Source of the DNA: a virus
Length of the DNA stretch: 59,990 bases
Reading direction: 5' to 3' (one strand)
Virus record (IMG/VR): IMGVR_UViG_3300022689_000080
Location: 1 to 59,990 of that record
In this document: positions 17,558-28,236 of the stretch, in pieces
Numbering within the stretch: position 1 is the stretch's first letter
How the letters are laid out: each line of letters opens with the position of its first letter
Notes under the pieces: model-generated
Told to the model about the DNA's origin: nothing
The model's database searches: none
The model's input: the letters and a program-made list of their open reading frames with translations, nothing else
Program-made: the position numbers and the translations under genes

Positions 17558-17953
17558 ATGGTCACTTCGCTACAGGCCACGGGAACCCCTGGAGGGATCC
17601 GCAGCTTTGCGCCGAAGTCCGAGTCGGCAACGGGGCGCGACGGAACCCAGTTCACCGAGCTGACCTCGTGGGCGATCCCCGGCCCTGCTCGCCTGTTCGA
17701 GGCGAAGTCCGGATCGACAACAGAGCGCGACGGAACCCAGTTCACCGAGCTGGCCTCCTGGGCAACTCCCGGCCTCATTCGTGTATTCGAGGCAAAGACG
17801 CCGGCCGAAATCCTGCCGCCAGTAGTCGACGTTCCCCTGGGCGGCGGTGGCAGCAAGAAGAAGGCCGAGTATGACCGCCATCTGGAAAGGCTCATGCGTG
17901 AGGACGAGGAGATCGTCGCAATCATCATGGCCGCTGTGAGGGTGCTTCAATGA
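17558..17953 (+). CDS. Hypothetical protein with duplicated motif, 131 aa
   Basis: ATG 17558 lies just after the fibre stop, and the stop overlaps the next gene by ATGA, which selects this frame over the other open frames. Two imperfect repeats share RDGTQFTEL(T/A)SWA (residues about 27-40 and 57-70), each followed by FEAK. The C-terminus is a Gly-rich linker followed by a charged helix ending in a hydrophobic stretch (IVAIIMAAVRVL). It may be an adaptor or chaperone for the neighbouring fibre or giant protein. Confidence 0.7.
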   Translation: MVTSLQATGTPGGIRSFAPKSESATGRDGTQFTELTSWAIPGPARLFEAKSGSTTERDGTQFTELASWATPGLIRVFEAKTPAEILPPVVDVPLGGGGSKKKAEYDRHLERLMREDEEIVAIIMAAVRVLQ

Positions 17954-20900
17954 GCAAGCTGTCCAACTGCATGAGCAAGGCCGGGAAGGCTCTCGACGCC
18001 GAGGACAAGAAGCGGATCCTCGAGCGGCGATCCGAGCTGGTTGGCGACGGCGCGAAGCAGGACGACGCTGCGCTTCAGGCCGTGGCCGATCGCATCTTTG
18101 AGCTGAAGCAGGAATTCCGCGAGCTTCGGGACCAGGGCATCGTCAACGCCATGCCGATCCTGCCGAACTACAACGCCGCGCGCGGCAACCGGATGGTGTC
18201 CACGCCCATCACCGCCACGGAGCCAGAGCCGAAGTTCGAGGGCGCTGACCGCGAGAAGGACGACACGCCCCTGCTGTCGGTTCAGGACTTCAACGAGATC
18301 ACGAACATGGTCGAGGACTGGCTGTTTCCCGAGCCGAAGAAGGGGGAGACGCGATCCCTCGAGACGAAGGCGGAGCTGGGCGCCCCGGAAATGAAGGACT
18401 CCGACTACGTGGGCCCGGGCACCGCGAAGTTCACGACGCCATCGCAGTCGCGCCGCATCCGCGATTCGTGGGAGAAGGCCGTGGAAGCCATGCCGAAAGA
18501 GCATCCGGCGCGCGGGAGTGTGGGCACGAAAACGGTCCTGAGCCTCTTCGATGCGACTGGCGAGTGGTCGGATCCGTGGGCGCAGGCCGGTTACAACGTG
18601 ATCTCCGTCGACCTGAAGAACGGCGACGACATCATGGATTTCGGCGTCCAGTACCTCAACGATATGTACGGCGAGTGGCTGAACGACGTGTACGCCGTGA
18701 TCGCGGCCTGCCCCTGCACGGACTTCTCCAACGCCGGAAACAAGCACAAGGCCGGCAAGCGGGAGAGCGGCGCCATCCAGCAAAGCCGCGAGCTGGTCTA
18801 CCAGACCTTGGCGACCATCGAGTACCTGCGCCCCGTGATATGGGCCATCGAGAACCCTGTGGGCCAGATCAAGAGCGAGACGGGCCTGCCGTCGCCGCGC
18901 CTGACTTTCCACCCCTATCACTTCGGTGATGCCTACACGAAAAAGACCCAGCTCTACGGCAACTTCAACCCGTTCTCCATGCCCACGGCGAGCGTCGAGC
19001 CCAAGCTGGGGTCGCTGATGCACAAGCTGGGCGGCAAGGACGAGTCTGACGCCGGCCTGCGCTCCATCACGCCGCGCGGCTTTGCGCTGTCCTTCTTCCT
19101 GGGCAACAACATGATGACCATGCCCGCGGAGGAGTACCTGAAGCGCCGGTACTTCAACGTGTGGCCGGACATCCAGCGCCTGATGAAGATCGGTGCGAGC
19201 GAGCGCGAGATCATCGCTTTCGTGGATGGCCAGTGGGACTACGAGGGCTCCGAGGCGAAGGAAGCGATTCAGGACATCCTGAACGACACGGACTCGCTGG
19301 GCGCGCTGCGGTCGGCGGTGGACTTCCTGGGCAGGGACAAGACCGCCCAGTTCAGCGTTCCGTCATGGGCCGATCAAAAGGTCGATGACATCCGGCGCAG
19401 AACGCCCGAGGAGCTGTCCGCACTGCCGACGCGGGAGCTGAACGCGGAAAACCGTGTCGCCGGCATGGACGCCTATCAGAGCTACCTCCTGTATAGATTC
19501 CCGACCCGAACCTTCCTCGACCGCCTCGACAAGGTGGAAAAGAGGGTAGGCGATAAGCAGGCGCAGGCCATACGTGCGGCGGACGTGGAGCGCGACAAGC
19601 GAGCCCTCTATTCGCTGTTCCAGCAGGCCGGCGTGTTCCCCACCAAGACGCGGTTGGTGCCCTTCCTGAAAGGCTTGGATCAACTGGACAAGGACCGGCC
19701 GTTCCAGTCTTACCTCTACACCCCCGAGGCCTACATCGACGCAATCGAAAACCCGATTGATTACAGCCATGACCGCGACGGCATCAGCCCGTACTTCAAG
19801 CCGGAAACGATCAAGAGGTACTTCCTCGATCTGGCGAAAAGCCTCTCGAGTACGCAGCAGGCGAAGCATCTGACCCTGGATGGCTACAAGAAGAACATCG
19901 GGATCGTCTACGACACGTTCATGGCCCTCCACGACGAGGAGGCGATCCGCTACTACTGGAACACCCAGGGGATCCTGAATGAGCGTCCCTTCGAGGAGCG
20001 CATGGCCGTCGACAGGGAGGAGCCGCCTGCCCCGCCATCCACGGACGACGGCGATCAGGAAGGCCTGTTCCGTCGCAGCGGCGCGACGCGCACCGGAAGG
20101 ACCGACGCGCAACTGATCCGGGGTCTGAAGAAGGCGCCCACGGTCAAGGTCATCGACACGATCAAGGGCCTGCCGAAGCGGATTCAGGACCAGCTCGCGG
20201 CCGAGGGCACGACGGAGATCAAGGGCTACTACGACCGCGGCGAGGGCGCGGTGTACCTCGTGCGCTCCGGCAACCGCGACGCCGACGATATGGACGCGAC
20301 GCTGCTTCACGAGGCGGTCGGCCACTACGGCATCGAGCTTCTGTTCGGAGAGGACATCGGCAAGTTCCTGGCGATGGTCTACGGCGCCCGGATGCGGGAT
20401 CCGGCCGTGAAGCGCGCGTTCGAGTACGTCGAGCGCTACTACCGCGGGGCCCCGAAGGCGGTGCAGGTGGCCGAGGCGGTGGCCTACCTTGCGGAGACGG
20501 ATCCGAAGAACGGGCTCCTGACGCGCATCGTGCAGTTCGTGAAGGGGATCCTGCGCAAGCTGGGCTTCCAGACGGAGTTCACGGCCGCGGACATCTACGA
20601 GGCCTTTGCCCTGGCGAAGCGCGCGATGGATGGCGAGATCCAGCCGATGCCGTGGTACATCCGCTCGTTTCAGGAGCGCCAGAATCTGGCCGCTGCCGAG
20701 GGCGCCGCGAGCATCGACTACATACTGGATCGCAACGAGGTCGGCCTGTACTCGCAGCTCGAGAAGGCGTTGAACGAGATGCCGGACTTCAAGCCCACGA
20801 AGAAGAACCCCGAGGGCAAGATCAAGGCGAGCCTGATCCTGAGCCGCCTGCAAAAGGCCGGCGTGAAGAAGGAGGAGCTGGAGTGGTCTACCTTCGCCGC

Positions 20901-23900
20901 GCGCCTACAGTCGAACCCCGACGAGCTGTGGACCCAGGAGGCCGCACTGGAGGCCGCGGAAGAGGGCAGGCTGGAGCTGATCCGCGACGAGCTGGAATCG
21001 GGTACAGGCGATTCTCCGGAGGGCGAGATCTGGCAGACGCCGCAGATCTACGACGAGCGCGACGCTTACGAATATCGCATAGATGACCTCATGGATGGCT
21101 GGGACAACGACAGCATTGAATACGAGCTGATCGAGTTCCTTGAAACGCTTCAGCCCGATGTTCTCGAGGAGGCGATGAAAGACTACCTCGAGGCCAACCG
21201 TGACTCGCTTTCGGAGTCAGAGATTTCGGAAATCGAAGAGAGCATGGATGGCGGAGAAGAGCAGTGGATCTCCGAAAACTTCGGCAAGATGAAAAACTTC
21301 CAGAAGCAGATGCGCAGCGAGTTCGAGGAATGGGCCGAGGGCTACGTGCGCGAGGAGTATTTTGCTGGGGATCCTTACACCTACACCCACATGAATTCCG
21401 AGTACGGGGATTACATCATCTTCGGAAGCGACGACCTGGGATATGACCTTCGCAAGGGCGGGCTTGAATGGAGCAGGCGCGTTGAGATCCCGGAGAACTA
21501 CCTTTCCGAGAACCGAATCTATTCAATCTCAGAAGCCAAAATCGCGTTCGAGAACTACCTTCGAGAGCAGGGCGACCTGAATGATGGCGATGCCGCAGGC
21601 GGCACGATCTTTATGGATTACCTCAATCAGGGTCTGCCGGCTTACGAGGACTACTGGGAAACCCTGATCCGTGTCGGCCCTCACGAGAAGATCGTGGGCG
21701 AGTATATGAAGGGCGGTCATTTTGATCGGGACGGCCAGGAGAATGTCGTGGTGTTCTCGCGCAACACGAAGCGCGAGATCGACGGCGTTTCAACGTACTA
21801 CATCGACGAACTGCAATCCGACTGGCACAGCGACGCCCGAAAAAGGGGTGGCTACAGCACCAGGGAGTTTATCGAGCGCAGGAAAAAAAGGCAGGACGAG
21901 ATTCGAGATCGCAGCCAGGAGGTATTTAGTCAGATCTACCGCCCCATAAAGGAGGTAGCGGAATACCTTATTGAGGGCAACCCTGAATACGTGGAGCGCG
22001 GTAAGCAGTCGTTGACTCAGGATCTTATTGGCACGGTAACGGGCACTCGACCTTCTGCGAACTCTGAAGCAAGAGCTGCACTAGGGACTCGCGCCGAGAG
22101 CAAATGGGAATATGCGACCGACGCCGAAAAAGAAGAGGCGGAGTTTTTTCAAGAGCTTCTGGAATCCAGGATCCCGGGCATAGCAGAACTTCAGGTCGAA
22201 AATCATGCGCTTGAAGCCGAGAAGGACAGTCTGTACGTCAACAATTTCCCTCCCGACGCTCCATTTAAGGACAGCGCCTACATCAACCTCGCGGTGAAAG
22301 ACGCGCTGGTGACGGCCGTGAATCGCGGCTACCGGCGCATCGCGTGGAACGATTCGCAGGCCGTTGCTGGCGTGTGGGGCGACAGGTACTTGGCCGGTTA
22401 CAAGGTGGTCTACGACAAAAAGATGGTCGGGGCCATAAAGAAGCTCACGGGGCTCACGCCGTATCGGCTCGATCTCGACGGCGACACCATCACCGCCGAG
22501 GATGTCGAGACTGCCGGCGGCGAGCTGAATATGCCGGGGATGTGGGTCATCGACATTCCTGAGTCCGTCGCGGAGCAGATCAAGGTCGAGGCCTTCCCGA
22601 TGTTCCGCATCGACGATCAGGCCCAGCCGGATATGTTTTCGGACCCGATTGGCGAGGAGCTGCAAGGCGCCGCGGCGAAGCTGTCACCGACCGAGATCGA
22701 CGAGTGGCGCATGGCCAACCGCGTGTCCCAGCGGGCCGGCCGAAACCGCGACGTGGAGGCCGCTGCGCGCCGCCTCGAGTCCGGCGATCTGACCCTGGAT
22801 GGCTACAACCAGATCGTGCAGAAGCACATGCCGATCTTCGAGCTGCGGCAGGTGCCGCCGTCGCCCACGGTGGGGGATATGTCCGCGGCGCTGTCCCAGG
22901 ACAAGGCGGAGCGGATCATCGGCGTCGACGTGAAGATTGCGGACGGGGAGCGCGTGGCCTCGCGCCTCGACATCCCGGCCTTCGACTTCTACAACACGTG
23001 GATCGTGTCGGTGCACCGCGGTGGCAGCAACACGGGTAGCTCCATCGGCTACGGCACCCATTCGGTCCTGACCAATGTGGAGTTCAAGACCAACCCGAAA
23101 GCGGCCCTGAAGGTCGCCACGGGGCGCAGCTCGAAGGCGCCGTTCGCCCGGGTGCACGGCGACTGGCAGAACATGGATCTCGAGAGCGCCCGCCGGCTGG
23201 CGGCGTCGGCCCTGAAGGATCCCGCCTGGGTGCAGGTGGGGCAGAACCCATTCCGGCACAGCTACTTCTACGAGAAGCGGACGGGCCAGCCAGTGGTCGC
23301 GGCCGAGAAGATCGTCCAGATCGGGCCCTTCGTCATGGCGCGCGGCGTCACCTACGCGAGCCCCCTCGAGGAGCAGTTCCGGGTCCGCGACACGGACGTG
23401 TTCTTCCGCCGCGTCGACGAGACGGACGACGAGCGCCGCAACGCCCGCCTGAAGGGCGAGGATCGGTCCTACCTCGATCGCGGCAAAGCGCTGTGGCATC
23501 GGGCCCTGTCCCCCGGCGGCAACCTGCCGGAAAAGGTGTTCGATGCGAAGATCCGGCGCGATGGCCAGATCGAGGCCGGCGAGCTGGATACGCGGCATCA
23601 GGTCTACGATCTCGAGCACGCTTTCAAAAAGGCGTTCGGCAAGAGCTTCGAGAAGCGCACCATAGAGCAGGAGCGCCAGATGCGTCGCGCCCTGGCTGGC
23701 GAGGCGAACGTGGATCTACCACGGGAAGTGCTGGATGTCCTCGGCGCCATGCGGGCGCACATCGACTCGCTCTCGGAGCAGTACATCGAGGCCCTGAAGT
23801 CTGACGGCCAGTACCTGCTGCAACAGCTCCCGCCGGAGCGCCGTGACGCTCTCATGCAGACGCTCATGGAGATGGGCGACGAGATCGACTTCGACGAGTT

Positions 23901-26307
23901 CAGCGGCCCGGAGGCCCGGATCGTGGCGAAGCTGCTGCTGATCCGCACGATCTCGGGCAACGTCGGCCGGTACGTGCATCGGTCCTATCAGGCCTACGAC
24001 GATCCAAAATGGTTCGACAGAATCCCGGCCCCGGTGATGAACAACGCGCGCCGCTACCTGAAGGAGAACTACATCGAGCAGGAAACCGCGCGCCGTGAGA
24101 AGCGCCGGAAGCGGGAAGTGAACAAGCTGGCCAAGCAGCTCCGGGCCGAGGACGAGAGCCTGACCCTGAAGGGCGCGAAAGCGATTGCGGACTCGCTGGT
24201 GGATCCCATCGAGGAGGTCACGGAAGCGGAAGCGCTCGAGCGCGCCGATATTGCGATCGAGGACATCGCCAAGAGCGGCACGGCCTACGATTCGATGGAG
24301 AGCTACTTCAAGGAGTCGAAGCTGGGCGCGAAGGATCTGTCGATCCTCAAGCGCCGCAAGGTCATCGGTGATCCGATTCTGGCCCTGCTGGGCGAATACT
24401 ATGACCCGCGCCTCAACTACGCGAAGTCCGTGGCGAAGATGAACCGCCTGATCCACAACGACCTGCTGCTGAAGGACATCCGCGAGGTCGGCATGGGCGT
24501 GTTCCTCTTCGAGGAGAAGGACCGGCCGGTGGGCGCCTGGAAGCAGCTTTCCTCGAAGGGGAACGAGCGCTACTCGCCCCTGGATGGCCTCTACACGACC
24601 CCGGAGGTCGCGCAGGCGTTTCAGGACGCCCTGGGCCACCCCGAGGACTGGGGCCGGATCGTGGAGGGCGTCATCCGCCTCAACGGCCTCGTGAAGTTCG
24701 GCAAGACGGTCCTCTCGCCAACCACGACGGTGCGCAACTGGGTGTCGGCCGCGTTCTTCACCCTGTCCAACGCGCACTTCAACTGGAAGCACATCGGCCG
24801 CTCCGTGAAGTCGATGAAAACCTACTTCGAGAAGGATGACAGCCAGCGGGAGTACCTGCGCAAGCTGAAGGAGCTGGGCGTGGTCTATGACACGCCGTAT
24901 GCCGGTGAAATGATGCGCCTTCTCGATGATGCGCAGATCGAGAATTTCCTGAACGGCGGGAAGATGACGGCGCGGCACTGGCTCCAATTCGCGCAGCGCT
25001 TGTACCAGTTCGGGGACGACTTCTGGAAGATCGTCGGCTGGGAGAACGAGATCCAGCTTCAGATGAAGTATTACGGGCTCGACCGGGAGGCCGCGGAGAA
25101 GGAGGCGGCGAAGCGGGTCCGCAACACCTATCCCACGTACTCGATGGTCGGCCAGTTCATGCAGCGCCTGCGGAAGTTCCCGCTGGCCGGTACGTTCGTG
25201 TCATTCCCTTCGGAGATCATCCGCACGAGCTATCACATCGTCCGCTACGCCTACCGCGATATGAAGCAGTCGAAGGCCCTGGGCGCCCAGCGACTGGCGG
25301 GGCTGGCGATCGCGTCCGGCGCGGCCTACATCATTCAGGAGCTGTCGAAGCAGGCCCTGGGCGTCGATGACGAAGAGGAGGAGGCAATCCGCCAGCAACT
25401 GCCGCCGTGGAGCCGGAACAGCAATCTTTGGTTCTGGTCGCGCGAGGACGGCCTGCTGCGCTACATGGATCTGAGCTACCACGATCCCTACAACTACTGG
25501 AAGCGGCCGATCACGGCGATGATGCGTGACGAGCCCCCGGGCAACCGCCTGCTGTCCGCGGCGACGGATATGGTCAAGCCGTTCTTCGGCACCGACATCG
25601 TGGCTGGCGCGGTCATGGAAGTCCTCACGAACCGGAAGAGTAGCGGCGGGCCCGTCTACAACGAGTCGGAGCATCCCGTTCAGATTGCGAAGGACTCCGC
25701 CGATCACATCCTGAAAGCGGTGTCGCCCGGGTTCGTGAACAACATCAACCGGACGGCGAAGGCGCTCCAGGGCGAGTACAGGGCTTCCGGGCAGCAATAC
25801 TCGGTGGCCGACGAGGGGCTGGCGTGGCTGGGCGTCCGGGTAAGCACCCTGGACCCTGCGGCCTCACTGAAGTTCCGGGCCTTCGATCAGACGCGCGACC
25901 TGCGCAGCACGTCCGCCATCGTGTCGAGCAAGATCCGCGACCCGAACCCAGTCTCGGACGAGGCGCTGCGCACGGCGTTCGACCGGATGATGTACCAGCG
26001 GGAGCAGATCTTCGATGACGCCCTGAAGATGGTGAAGGCGGCGAGGAAGAGCGGCATCACCAGCACCGCGGACATCCAGCGGATCCTGGCCAGCGGCGGC
26101 TACTCGAAGGATGACGCGCGGCTGCTGGCCAACGGGCGGATTCCGGGGATGCGAAGGACGCCGCGGTGGATGGACGCCGCGATCAAGTCGAACGAGAGGG
26201 TGTTCGGGCGCGATGCCGGCCGGGAGACGCGGCGGCGCCGGGATCTCGTGCGGCGCTGGATGGCCGAATACTCTAGCCAGCGTTCTAACCAGCCTGCCGC
26301 CGCTTGA
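17950..26307 (+). CDS. Large polyvalent protein 2 (2785 aa): C5-methyltransferase-like and zincin-like motifs
   Basis: ATG 17950 has GAGGG upstream. Residues about 190-400 resemble C5-cytosine methyltransferases: motif I region LFDATGEWSDPWAQAG (near 198-213), catalytic-type ACPCTDFS (C256) and ENPVG (E301-G305). A HEAVGHYG motif (H787, E788, H792) resembles metallopeptidase signatures, but the spacing is HExxxH. Near 1436-1475, PFKDSAYINLAVKDAL plus YRRIAWNDSQ matches a domain recurring in phage large polyvalent proteins. The C-terminal third has hydrophobic patches (RLAGLAIASGAAYII near 2450) and resembles internal virion protein tails. It is probably packaged in the virion and injected with DNA; activity of each domain is unproven. 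Confidence 0.87.
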   Translation: MSKLSNCMSKAGKALDAEDKKRILERRSELVGDGAKQDDAALQAVADRIFELKQEFRELRDQGIVNAMPILPNYNAARGNRMVSTPITATEPEPKFEGADREKDDTPLLSVQDFNEITNMVEDWLFPEPKKGETRSLETKAELGAPEMKDSDYVGPGTAKFTTPSQSRRIRDSWEKAVEAMPKEHPARGSVGTKTVLSLFDATGEWSDPWAQAGYNVISVDLKNGDDIMDFGVQYLNDMYGEWLNDVYAVIAACPCTDFSNAGNKHKAGKRESGAIQQSRELVYQTLATIEYLRPVIWAIENPVGQIKSETGLPSPRLTFHPYHFGDAYTKKTQLYGNFNPFSMPTASVEPKLGSLMHKLGGKDESDAGLRSITPRGFALSFFLGNNMMTMPAEEYLKRRYFNVWPDIQRLMKIGASEREIIAFVDGQWDYEGSEAKEAIQDILNDTDSLGALRSAVDFLGRDKTAQFSVPSWADQKVDDIRRRTPEELSALPTRELNAENRVAGMDAYQSYLLYRFPTRTFLDRLDKVEKRVGDKQAQAIRAADVERDKRALYSLFQQAGVFPTKTRLVPFLKGLDQLDKDRPFQSYLYTPEAYIDAIENPIDYSHDRDGISPYFKPETIKRYFLDLAKSLSSTQQAKHLTLDGYKKNIGIVYDTFMALHDEEAIRYYWNTQGILNERPFEERMAVDREEPPAPPSTDDGDQEGLFRRSGATRTGRTDAQLIRGLKKAPTVKVIDTIKGLPKRIQDQLAAEGTTEIKGYYDRGEGAVYLVRSGNRDADDMDATLLHEAVGHYGIELLFGEDIGKFLAMVYGARMRDPAVKRAFEYVERYYRGAPKAVQVAEAVAYLAETDPKNGLLTRIVQFVKGILRKLGFQTEFTAADIYEAFALAKRAMDGEIQPMPWYIRSFQERQNLAAAEGAASIDYILDRNEVGLYSQLEKALNEMPDFKPTKKNPEGKIKASLILSRLQKAGVKKEELEWSTFAARLQSNPDELWTQEAALEAAEEGRLELIRDELESGTGDSPEGEIWQTPQIYDERDAYEYRIDDLMDGWDNDSIEYELIEFLETLQPDVLEEAMKDYLEANRDSLSESEISEIEESMDGGEEQWISENFGKMKNFQKQMRSEFEEWAEGYVREEYFAGDPYTYTHMNSEYGDYIIFGSDDLGYDLRKGGLEWSRRVEIPENYLSENRIYSISEAKIAFENYLREQGDLNDGDAAGGTIFMDYLNQGLPAYEDYWETLIRVGPHEKIVGEYMKGGHFDRDGQENVVVFSRNTKREIDGVSTYYIDELQSDWHSDARKRGGYSTREFIERRKKRQDEIRDRSQEVFSQIYRPIKEVAEYLIEGNPEYVERGKQSLTQDLIGTVTGTRPSANSEARAALGTRAESKWEYATDAEKEEAEFFQELLESRIPGIAELQVENHALEAEKDSLYVNNFPPDAPFKDSAYINLAVKDALVTAVNRGYRRIAWNDSQAVAGVWGDRYLAGYKVVYDKKMVGAIKKLTGLTPYRLDLDGDTITAEDVETAGGELNMPGMWVIDIPESVAEQIKVEAFPMFRIDDQAQPDMFSDPIGEELQGAAAKLSPTEIDEWRMANRVSQRAGRNRDVEAAARRLESGDLTLDGYNQIVQKHMPIFELRQVPPSPTVGDMSAALSQDKAERIIGVDVKIADGERVASRLDIPAFDFYNTWIVSVHRGGSNTGSSIGYGTHSVLTNVEFKTNPKAALKVATGRSSKAPFARVHGDWQNMDLESARRLAASALKDPAWVQVGQNPFRHSYFYEKRTGQPVVAAEKIVQIGPFVMARGVTYASPLEEQFRVRDTDVFFRRVDETDDERRNARLKGEDRSYLDRGKALWHRALSPGGNLPEKVFDAKIRRDGQIEAGELDTRHQVYDLEHAFKKAFGKSFEKRTIEQERQMRRALAGEANVDLPREVLDVLGAMRAHIDSLSEQYIEALKSDGQYLLQQLPPERRDALMQTLMEMGDEIDFDEFSGPEARIVAKLLLIRTISGNVGRYVHRSYQAYDDPKWFDRIPAPVMNNARRYLKENYIEQETARREKRRKREVNKLAKQLRAEDESLTLKGAKAIADSLVDPIEEVTEAEALERADIAIEDIAKSGTAYDSMESYFKESKLGAKDLSILKRRKVIGDPILALLGEYYDPRLNYAKSVAKMNRLIHNDLLLKDIREVGMGVFLFEEKDRPVGAWKQLSSKGNERYSPLDGLYTTPEVAQAFQDALGHPEDWGRIVEGVIRLNGLVKFGKTVLSPTTTVRNWVSAAFFTLSNAHFNWKHIGRSVKSMKTYFEKDDSQREYLRKLKELGVVYDTPYAGEMMRLLDDAQIENFLNGGKMTARHWLQFAQRLYQFGDDFWKIVGWENEIQLQMKYYGLDREAAEKEAAKRVRNTYPTYSMVGQFMQRLRKFPLAGTFVSFPSEIIRTSYHIVRYAYRDMKQSKALGAQRLAGLAIASGAAYIIQELSKQALGVDDEEEEAIRQQLPPWSRNSNLWFWSREDGLLRYMDLSYHDPYNYWKRPITAMMRDEPPGNRLLSAATDMVKPFFGTDIVAGAVMEVLTNRKSSGGPVYNESEHPVQIAKDSADHILKAVSPGFVNNINRTAKALQGEYRASGQQYSVADEGLAWLGVRVSTLDPAASLKFRAFDQTRDLRSTSAIVSSKIRDPNPVSDEALRTAFDRMMYQREQIFDDALKMVKAARKSGITSTADIQRILASGGYSKDDARLLANGRIPGMRRTPRWMDAAIKSNERVFGRDAGRETRRRRDLVRRWMAEYSSQRSNQPAAA

Positions 26308-26322
26308 GGTATCCCAGCGAAC

Positions 26323-26362
26323 CCCAGTGCGCCGCAAGTCATTGATTTGCGGCGACACTGGG
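26323..26362. terminator. Strong hairpin between convergent genes (possible bidirectional terminator)
   Basis: CCCAGTG+CGCCGCAA pairs with TTGCGGCG+CACTGGG, a 15-bp stem with one bulged A and a 9-base loop (26338-26346). It lies 15 bases after the giant gene and before the convergent HNH gene. No U-tract follows on either strand, so rho-independent termination is uncertain. It also abuts attP and may belong to it. Confidence 0.5.
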
Positions 26363-26435
26363 CGACATCGAAAGACGGGCGGCGGGTTCGAGTCCCGTCC
26401 GCTCCGCCATATTTGTTGTGCAAAATCAATGACTT
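26336..26435. repeat. 15/16-bp inverted repeat flanking the attP core
   Basis: AAGTCATTGATTTGC (26336-26350) is the reverse complement of GCAAAATCAATGACTT (26420-26435) apart from one extra A. The arms bracket the tRNA fragment and are candidates for integrase arm-type or excisionase binding sites. The left arm shares bases with the hairpin at 26323-26362. Confidence 0.75.
26382..26409 (+). other. Probable attP core: 3' end of a tRNA gene (T-arm, acceptor stem, CCA)
   Basis: T-stem GCGGG/CCCGT closes around TTCGAGT, followed by acceptor strand CCGCTCC, discriminator G and CCA. No matching GGAGCGG 5' acceptor strand occurs in the preceding 90 bases, so this is a fragment, not a functional tRNA. 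A tRNA 3' end next to an integrase is the classic attP arrangement, because integration rebuilds the host tRNA. G73 would fit tRNA-Ser among others; the isotype is not determinable. Confidence 0.8.
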
Positions 26436-26465: not shown

Positions 26466-26999
26466 CTACCCACCCTTTGCTCGGTTGAGCAGGTATTGTT
26501 CCGCCACCAGCCTGAACACTTCCTCGCCCCACTCATTCATAGCGATATTGACCGCGACACAGACCAGGCGCACGTTCTCGGGATCATAGCCAACTTTGCT
26601 GTCGATCCTGTCGATGCTCGGCGCGAATGGGCGCCTAAGCCACCCATCAGGGCGATGTAACCCGAAGGAGATGCCCGTGACTGCGCAGCGCCCGCCAGAA
26701 GCCTCGACGAGAGCCTGTTCGTCCTGCTTGGAAAGCCCATACCGCTTTCGCTTCCGCGCAGTGCGAAACATTTCAGCGTAGTACCGATCAATATCCTGAT
26801 CGTCTGTCGCTGTCGACCCGGGGTGAACAGCGCCGGAGTCAATCGCCTTTGAGAGGATCTGGCGAGCGCTGGCGGCATCGCTGATGTGGCCCTCCGAAAG
26901 ATCTCCTGGGATAGTGTGGTAGTAGGTTCTTCCTTTCCTTTGGATGCGAATCTGTATTCCTCGGCCGCTGACCCGCAGTCCTGATGGCAAGCTGTTCAT
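26466..26999 (-). CDS. HNH endonuclease-like protein with integrase-type N-terminal domain (177 aa)
   Basis: Residues 8-34 match residues 7-33 of the adjacent integrase at 19 of 27 positions (shared QIR, GRTYY, TIPG), so the N-terminus is a copy of the integrase arm-DNA-binding domain. The C-terminal half is HNH-like: C105 in GGRCAVTG, PSIDRID (127-133), GYDPENVRLVC (137-147) and N151. That pattern fits small homing-type HNH nucleases. It lies between integrase (11 bp away) and attP. Possible roles are a homing nuclease using integrase sites, or a regulator of integration. The domain match is seen; the role is inference. Confidence 0.82.
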   Translation of the reverse strand: MNSLPSGLRVSGRGIQIRIQRKGRTYYHTIPGDLSEGHISDAASARQILSKAIDSGAVHPGSTATDDQDIDRYYAEMFRTARKRKRYGLSKQDEQALVEASGGRCAVTGISFGLHRPDGWLRRPFAPSIDRIDSKVGYDPENVRLVCVAVNIAMNEWGEEVFRLVAEQYLLNRAKGG

Positions 27000-27010: not shown

Positions 27011-28045
27011 TCAGATGGCCAGCTCGAAGCGCTTCCGGTCCTGGCTGGCCGAATACTCCTCAATGAACTCCGAGTAGGTGCGCAGGAACATTTCCGTGCT
27101 GTGGCCGAGGTACTTGGCCGCGTCGGCCGGCTGGATGCCGGCGGAGAGGAGCTGCGCCGCCTTCGTGTGGCGGAGCGTGTAGGGGATCCGGTACGGGATC
27201 CGCGCGCGGCGGTGAGCCTTCCGCCATGCCTCGTTGAACACGTCCGTGTCCAGGTGGGGCCCGCCCTTCGTGTTCTGGAATATGTGCCCGCCCTCGAAGC
27301 GGGTGACGTGTCCGTTCAGGGCCGATCGCGCCTGCTGGGGCACGTAGACCGTCCGGCGCTCGTAGGTCTTGGTCGTGGGCTCGAGGCGCCGCCGGACGAT
27401 CTGCTTCGTGATCGATAGCTCCGCGCCGCTGTAGTCGGTCCAGAGTAGCCCCAGGGCCTCGCCCGGGCGCAGGCCGGTGTGGATCAGGAGCGTGAAGTAG
27501 ACCAGCGACTGGCCGCTCAGGTGGCGCTGGATGGCCTTCCATTCATCCGGCGTGTACCGCTGCACAGGGGCCCTCTGGCGGCGCTGGAAGCGTAGCCCCA
27601 CCGCAGGGTTGGGGGTGACGCCGTAGAGCGTGAAGATGCCAGCCAGGGGCCCGAGGGCGTTCCGCTTCGTCTTGGGTGACACGTCCCACTGGGCGACCGT
27701 CTCGCGGACGGTTCGGGCGTCGATGGATAGCAGTGGCATGCGGCCGAAGGCCGGGATCCAGCGCGTGTTCAGGATGTTCTCGTAGGACAGGTGGGTGGAG
27801 CGCTTGGCCTCCAGCATATCGAGGTAGTGCTGGGCGGCTTCGATGAAGGGCGGATTCTCCGCCGCTGCGGTGAGATCGCCACCCAGCTCGAGGATGGCGA
27901 TCATCTGCTTCCTGCGCTTTACCGCCTGGGCGAAGTGACTCGCTGAGAGGTTGCCCGGGATCGTCTCGTAATAGGTTCGACCGCCGTGCTGGACTCGGAT
28001 CTGGAGCCCTCGGCCGCTGGGCCTGATTCCTTTCGGGTTATCCAT
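27011..28045 (-). CDS. int: Tyrosine-family site-specific integrase (344 aa)
   Basis: The tyrosine recombinase architecture is complete: N-terminal arm-binding domain (1-50), SAM-like core-binding domain (about 65-155) and catalytic domain with R193 (TGLRPGEALGL), R292 (YTLRHTKA), H315 (YLGHSTEMF) and nucleophile Y324 (LRTYSEF). It would join attP to a host tRNA gene 3' end; the tRNA fragment lies about 600 bp downstream. The start at 28045 lies inside the upstream excisionase-like frame. Length is normal for phage integrases. Confidence 0.95.
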   Translation of the reverse strand: MDNPKGIRPSGRGLQIRVQHGGRTYYETIPGNLSASHFAQAVKRRKQMIAILELGGDLTAAAENPPFIEAAQHYLDMLEAKRSTHLSYENILNTRWIPAFGRMPLLSIDARTVRETVAQWDVSPKTKRNALGPLAGIFTLYGVTPNPAVGLRFQRRQRAPVQRYTPDEWKAIQRHLSGQSLVYFTLLIHTGLRPGEALGLLWTDYSGAELSITKQIVRRRLEPTTKTYERRTVYVPQQARSALNGHVTRFEGGHIFQNTKGGPHLDTDVFNEAWRKAHRRARIPYRIPYTLRHTKAAQLLSAGIQPADAAKYLGHSTEMFLRTYSEFIEEYSASQDRKRFELAI

Positions 28046-28236
28046 GCGCTGACCGCCTCCCGATCAATCAACGTCGTGCGGCCGATTACATAGTAGTGGA
28101 GGCCCCGGGTCCAGTGCCGCCGCATCCAGCCGTCGATGGTGGTTTCGGGCAGGCCTAGCTCCTGGGCGTACTTGGCTTTGCTCACGAGGCGAGGCCAGGA
28201 TCCGGTCATGCTCGCGGACTCATCAACAATGGTCAT
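27919..28236 (-). CDS. xis: Excisionase-like protein with MerR-type winged helix (about 105 aa)
   Basis: The core VSKAKYAQELGLPETTIDGWMRRH followed about ten residues later by GRTTLIDREAVSAWI is typical of phage excisionases and directs integrase towards excision. The first candidate ATG is at 28236, with another at 28209. The C-terminal 42 residues are Ser/Arg-rich and overlap the integrase gene by 127 bp in another frame, so the true functional end may be close to the DREAVSAWI segment. Confidence 0.7.
   Translation of the reverse strand: MTIVDESASMTGSWPRLVSKAKYAQELGLPETTIDGWMRRHWTRGLHYYVIGRTTLIDREAVSAWITRKESGPAAEGSRSESSTAVEPITRRSRATSQRVTSPRR

Follow-up and report, generated by a model that had tools for sequence, protein, structure and literature searches.

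The stretch of virus DNA analysed here, called the window, is 59,990 bp in length (IMG/VR record IMGVR_UViG_3300022689_000080). On its minus strand, a small gene for a putative excisionase-like helix-turn-helix (HTH) protein is followed by a tyrosine integrase gene (int), a gene encoding an HNH nuclease-type protein, P0001, and the phage attachment site attP (Table 1). The gap from the int stop codon to the HNH gene is 12 bp. The HNH gene had been placed between int and attP in an earlier sequence-only reading; it does lie on the int side of the attP core, but one putative arm-type site separates its stop codon from the core.

Table 1. Coordinates of the genes, domains and sites around attP in the window.
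Feature	Position	Strand	Basis
Arm-domain/HNH fusion protein P0001, 177 aa	26466..26999	-	ORF with ATG; ribosome-binding site GGGAGG directly 5'
Arm-binding-type N-domain of the HNH protein, aa 5-56	26832..26987	-	26/52 identity to the integrase; modelled beta-beta-beta-alpha
PacI-like HNH core, aa ~86-169 (C105, D130, R131, Y138, N151)	26493..26744	-	PacI profile match, Foldseek, conservation
Tyrosine integrase P0002, 344 aa	27011..28045	-	Pfam Phage_integrase, E 3.7e-13; Arm-DNA-bind_3 sub-threshold
Arm-binding N-domain of the integrase, aa 4-55	27881..28036	-	Arm-DNA-bind_3 (sub-threshold), alignment with lambda Int, model
Putative excisionase/AlpA-like HTH protein, overlapping the int start	27919..28236	-	Pfam HTH_17, sub-threshold, E 0.003
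attP core, like a tRNA 3' end	26378..26410	+	Sequence; same core 3' of related integrases in L003, L004, L009, L010
Putative arm-type site on the far side of the core, half of a perfect inverted repeat	26336..26348	.	Sequence repeat
Putative arm-type site between the HNH stop and the core	26423..26435	.	Other half of the repeat; AAATCAAYNACTTA motif

A perfect 13-bp inverted repeat, AAATCAATGACTT, lies on both sides of the attP core, and exact copies of AAATCAANNACTT in the 60-kb window are confined to the two halves of this repeat. The 13-bp repeats are credible arm sites because AAATCAAYNACTTA recurs beside the core at the attP of phages with related integrases (loci L004, L005, L007, L008, L009, L010 and L011), and the window integrase would be expected to bind them. 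Many of the other loci collected in this study have the HNH gene ~30-150 bp from a tRNA-3'-end core, on either side of it.

A small ORF similar to the putative excisionase precedes int in L003 (5849-6133) and L004 (929-1339). In the window, the putative excisionase frame shares more than 100 bp with the start of int, and a similar overlap is present in both of these loci. On the other side, attP is adjoined by a single plus-strand ORF of 2785 aa (17950-26307), which looks like a giant multidomain phage protein and gives weak matches only, to a C-5 DNA methylase-like region (aa 246-304) and a Phage_L5_gp82-like region (aa 1687-1789). Int and the giant ORF, either side of attP, have a 23-nt direct repeat with 87% identity at their 3' ends (27036-27058 and 26251-26273, respectively); it may be due to chance or may be the trace of an old recombination across attP.

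Arm domain and nuclease half of the fused protein

The N-termini of P0001 and the integrase had been noted to agree at 19 of 27 aligned positions, and exactly this number was recovered between residues 5-31 of the HNH protein and 4-30 of the integrase. The match runs on without gaps to 26 identities in 52 positions (BLASTP E 4e-15), with z of ~23-28 against shuffles of the same residues. The N-domain of the window HNH protein scores higher with its own integrase than with related integrases of other phages. A profile of eight lambda-like (LP-type) HNH N-termini, with no integrase included, matched only lambda Int among 177,635 PDB sequences, and the isolated lambda arm-binding domain was ranked first (1kjk/2wcc, E 9.7e-7). 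The domain that is part of a recombinase in lambda is thus homologous to eight N-termini attached here to a nuclease. A profile of related integrases aligned with full-length lambda Int from residue 4 onwards (E 1e-35). The proposal that the N-terminus is an integrase arm-binding domain is therefore borne out in the sense that it is of arm-binding type and closest to that of the adjoining integrase.

The AF2 model of P0001 has a mean pLDDT of 82.7, and its N-domain is of modest confidence (pLDDT ~53-72). Strands were predicted at residues 8-11, 14-21 and 24-31 with a helix at 42-54, and the integrase N-domain shows the same sheet-plus-helix topology, with predicted strands at 7-10, 13-20 and 23-30 and a helix at 35-53. 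Both the sequence homology and the predicted three-stranded sheet plus helix characteristic of a lambda-type arm-binding domain were thus found in the N-domain of the window HNH protein. A recent local duplication of the int N-terminus in the window was also considered and is unsupported, with identical codons at 9 of the 26 positions sharing a residue versus 11.7 expected. Since this codon-level sign is absent, we favour a pair that is long-standing or co-evolving.

The second half had been described as a clean HNH core, which holds only in part: it is a PacI-like HNH, but not a canonical one, with arginine in place of the histidine of the DHI motif (APSIDRID). The nuclease half matches endonuclease families in PHROGs (E 3e-17), and only this half is recognised there. 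Pfam recognised no HNH domain in the window protein, and the fused proteins are unrecognised by Pfam, NCBIfam and PADLOC. The closest solved relative of the HNH core is PacI (3ldy; profile match E 0.0025), which is also the top Foldseek match of the window protein, with a probability of 0.97 but an E-value of only 0.033. The two share the D-R, G-Y and N motif positions; PacI differs in being a restriction enzyme with zinc motifs and without an integrase domain.

Alignments of 44-47 relatives show C105, D130, R131 and Y138 to be invariant and N151 to be conserved in at least 90%. Predicted strands at 127-131 and 143-147 and a helix at 148-157 form the beta-beta-alpha fold, with D130 and N151 in the metal-ligand positions. 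The catalytic histidine expected beside the first Asp is replaced by the invariant Arg131, as in PacI, and the profile alignment gave no reliably aligned counterpart in the HNH core for the general-base Tyr of PacI. PacI is an active restriction enzyme with Asp and Asn as metal ligands and Tyr, not His, as the proposed general base (PMC4081073). D130, N151 and the surrounding motif are kept in nearly all int-associated copies listed. Catalytic activity of the HNH half is considered likely, with the uncertainty that comes from a PacI-like motif in which Arg stands for His.

Recurrence of the fusion and matching to neighbouring integrases

Scanning viral contigs with the window protein gave no close relatives, so the exact window fusion is rare and profiles were needed. 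Relatives were gathered by profile-based scans of viral contigs and genomes, and near-copies were removed. Public collections yielded 125 non-redundant HNH relatives, and 37 of these have a tyrosine integrase no more than 3 kb away; this fraction is a property of the sample and not a natural frequency, since the relatives were found via the conserved HNH motif. Nearly all of the integrase-adjacent genes lie downstream of int in the same orientation, and many overlap or directly adjoin it. Named phage and plasmid records yielded the nuclease half only, with no fusion, and surveys of ~750 bacterial genomes added few HNH relatives to those already found.

The pairing was assessed with an integrase profile built from integrase catalytic domains only, and a match was defined as z of at least 6 versus the own integrase in the 34 testable pairs. 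Sixteen of the HNH N-termini match the arm domain of their own integrase versus 2.7 expected, and none of 20,000 permutations reaches this number. In most of the 16 matched pairs, the own integrase ranks first of 34. The sequence-only reading had called for a search for further fusions of an integrase N-terminus to HNH beside integrases, and such proteins do occur in quantity. The matched pairs span at least six unrelated arm-domain types, and each neighbouring integrase bears the same type as its HNH. They include the PGIR type of the window, the lambda-like LPxxVYxxHGxYY type (L018, L021, L027, L030 and L121), the RHGKxxYYFRRGxGxRxRLPD type (L036, L100 and L128), the YESTxTTDRxxAE type (L033), and separate types in L115, L259 and L278. 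The sequence-only reading would have been refuted by a generic N-terminal domain occurring away from integrases; in this sample, most HNH relatives with no integrase close by have other N-termini. Exceptions were also found: arm-like N-termini occur without an integrase found in the locus in L098, L102 and L132, and the arm type is mismatched to the neighbouring integrase in L010 and L025.

A phylogenetic tree of the HNH cores groups the window HNH with those of L018, L108, L117 and L115, whose arm types differ, in a clade with 89/80 support; the support for this mixed clade is moderate (85-92). The arm types of L018 and L115 match their own neighbouring integrases. The RHGK-type proteins form a separate clade (99/96) among HNH proteins without arm domains. 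The simplest reading of the tree is that the nuclease lineage gained or exchanged arm domains several times and ended up matched to the adjacent integrase. Neighbour-matched pairing over at least six domain types would then be a clear example of a nuclease that has been re-aimed repeatedly.

Several loci show other arrangements. In L102, a pair of 33-bp att repeats lies 19.3 kb apart, and no integrase was found at the far end; the far end of L098 likewise gave no integrase, only a weak recombinase match. A 19.3-kb element on a Rhodocyclaceae MAG contig (L187/L188, 2720 to 21994) is bounded by 33-bp repeats of a tRNA-His 3' end; it carries an apparent RND-type efflux pump, a MerR-like regulator and an arm-like HNH just inside one end, with no recognisable integrase. 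In L132 (3650-4420), an HNH with an arm-like N-terminus lies between two tRNA-Leu 3'-end cores, as if bounded by its own attachment sites. A second set of HNH genes, without arm domain, is located just 3' of integrases in L152, L287 and L136. The HNH beside the integrase and attP of L026 (4845-5573) has an N-terminus rich in Cys and, at its C-terminal end, a segment that is AP2-like by eye, and looks like a different way of arming the same nuclease.

Insertion, mobility and selection in one phage family

A scan with the integrase of L030 recovered 66 loci of one family, with the attachment core at the 5' end of one gene, which we take from its sequence to be mutS. In most L030-type relatives without the HNH or other cargo, the core lies 65-66 bp past the int stop and repeats of the TATTAGACA type abut the stop. 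In the HNH-containing L190 and L193, which are the same phages as L030 and L037, it lies 587 bp past the stop. The HNH gene is an insertion of ~521 bp placed exactly between int and the arm repeats in this Pseudomonas-type phage family. Its presence is polymorphic: of the close relatives whose integrases are 93-98% identical, most lack it. As expected of a homing gene, it is thus inserted beside its inferred target, the arm sites, in alleles that otherwise match the empty ones.

The last HNH codons (SIGQRQ) in L190 and L193 run over one arm half-site and the half-site spacing is reduced; in phages with other cargo in this slot the repeat array is intact. The overwriting may be the carriers' escape from their own nuclease, as judged from few lineages. 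Between L030, which carries the HNH gene, and L191, which does not, int is identical over nt 481-953 (473 bp) and then diverges up to the HNH; L030 switches to the type of the HNH-containing phages 46 bp before the end of int.

Among the few lineages compared (L030, L031 and L037), HNH dS ranges from 0.14 to 0.40 with dN of at most 0.002, versus dS of 0.63-0.92 for int. The HNH gene is under strong purifying selection in these lineages, with almost no amino-acid change. The common ancestor of the HNH genes is apparently younger than that of the neighbouring int genes, though the lower silent divergence could also reflect ordinary recombination or different codon constraints.

Possible roles at the attachment site

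Homing, exclusion of related phages and a switch on excision had all been suggested from the sequence alone, and the genomic evidence favours homing, because of the precise insertion beside the arm sites, the presence/absence polymorphism and the lower silent divergence than in int. We lean towards the interpretation that P0001 is an attP-arm-directed nuclease, whose gene is most likely of a free-standing homing type that repeatedly takes the targeting domain of the resident integrase. Since matched pairing recurs in many unrelated viruses, these arm-domain nucleases probably home in on viral insertion sites. The homologue of the lambda-type arm-binding domain would bind DNA and bring the PacI-like HNH to attP arm sites in phages of the same integrase class, where the HNH would cut relatives lacking the gene, whether co-infecting or resident, in their int-attP region. 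Repair would then copy the HNH gene in between int and the arm sites, and the carrier's own attP would be spared. An HNH that came to lie beside a different integrase would take on the arm domain of that integrase, so that its aim would follow the local attP. The data themselves show the fusion, the matching to the neighbour, the insertion point, the polymorphism and the purifying selection.

The closest precedent is Odn (origin-directed nuclease, gp88) of phage ICP1. This homing-type nuclease has a domain that shares 42% identity with the RepA_N domain of its victim, and it cuts at RepA sites (PMC8263062). Such a chimera can therefore work. Like P0001, Odn fuses a nuclease to a domain shared with the site-specific DNA-binding protein of a mobile element. 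Odn combines a T5orf172 nuclease domain with a satellite replication origin as the target, whereas P0001 combines a PacI-like HNH and a tyrosine-integrase domain with attP as the presumed target; unlike in Odn, the matching integrase of P0001 is next door in the same genome, and it is this integrase that the domain matches best. The free-standing HNH homing endonucleases of phages, whose genes are dispersed among other phage genes, resemble P0001 in a related HNH core (e.g. PA11 gp48) and in presence/absence polymorphism. Domain swapping among phage homing nucleases has been described, and in the HNH/AP2 proteins described so far HNH comes first and AP2 last, with no link to an integrase (PMC10448857). 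This order is reversed in P0001 and the other int-associated fusions, which have the arm domain first, matching the adjacent integrase. Searches of freely accessible published papers found no description of integrase-arm/HNH fusions. In kind, the fusion belongs with the chimeric homing-type nucleases, as a variant whose targeting domain comes from a new source and whose presumed target is new.

Several observations count against the attP-nuclease interpretation, namely the arginine in place of the HNH histidine, the two mismatched loci and the three loci where no integrase was found. Two perfect 13-bp putative arm sites are retained at the window attP, which calls for some way of avoiding self-cutting. 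The int-attP slot is shared by other cargo without a homing domain, and location alone thus proves little.

It is possible, though unlikely, that P0001 is instead an Odn-like nuclease for the exclusion of competitors, with its arm domain diverged towards the arm sites of other phages of the same integrase class and its spread by homing incidental. Cutting the attP or the circular genome of others would block their integration or replication. The arm domains are only ~50% identical to those of the neighbouring integrases and could thereby spare the carrier's attP, some HNH arm types differ from that of the resident integrase (L010 and L025), the HNH is under strong purifying selection, and Odn itself is a precedent. 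However, most of the matched HNH arm domains resemble the carrier's own integrase more than any other in the set, and the gene is nearly always directly 3' of int beside attP, as for a homing gene at its target. Homing and exclusion are compatible, as such a homing enzyme would damage competing prophages too.

A regulator of integration and excision is improbable. Co-expressed with int, it would compete at arm sites or nick attP and so bias the direction of recombination, with nuclease activity lost or minor. The operon-like arrangement, in which the HNH start overlaps the int stop or lies within 12 bp of it in many loci, would suit this role, as would the loss of the HNH histidine to Arg, and a shared arm-site specificity would be expected. 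However, the HNH gene lies beyond attP from int in some loci. Two further points make a regulatory role less likely: most close relatives lack the gene, and the metal-ligand residues are conserved along with the motif around them, which is unexpected for a mere binder.

The AP2 fold class, a three-stranded sheet plus helix, resembles that of the arm-binding domain. A generic AP2-like domain on an ordinary phage HNH that drifted into the cargo slot, its likeness to the integrase without functional meaning, is very improbable, even though AP2/HNH homing proteins are known (PMC10448857) and phages of the L030-type family use the int-attP interval as a general cargo slot: the matching is neighbour-specific over several unrelated arm-domain types and far above the permutations, HNH relatives far from integrases mostly bear other N-termini, and the profile match is to lambda Int specifically and not to AP2 proteins.

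The homing-type interpretation has a broader form, which we put forward as a tentative possibility: a widespread and undescribed class of phage nucleases may repeatedly re-fit its targeting domain from the adjacent integrase and turn against related temperate phages at their attachment sites, and competition among prophages at attP may shape how arm sites and arm domains diversify. Small as it is, the gene pair brings together two well-studied fields, site selection by tyrosine integrases and nucleases of the homing or interference kind. An attP-arm-directed nuclease predicts arm sites that are under attack, which could help explain the diversification of integrase arm domains and arm sites. 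Each genome also supplies an integrase arm domain matched with a nuclease arm domain; together these pairs form a natural set from which arm-site specificity could be read, and they may yield nucleases whose aim can be changed by exchanging a domain of ~55 residues.

The int-attP slot of the mutS-integrating Pseudomonas-type phages holds several unrelated cargo genes at the same point (L194, L197, L202, L205, L206, L218, L219 and L225), and it is likely to be a place to find new exclusion or defence genes.
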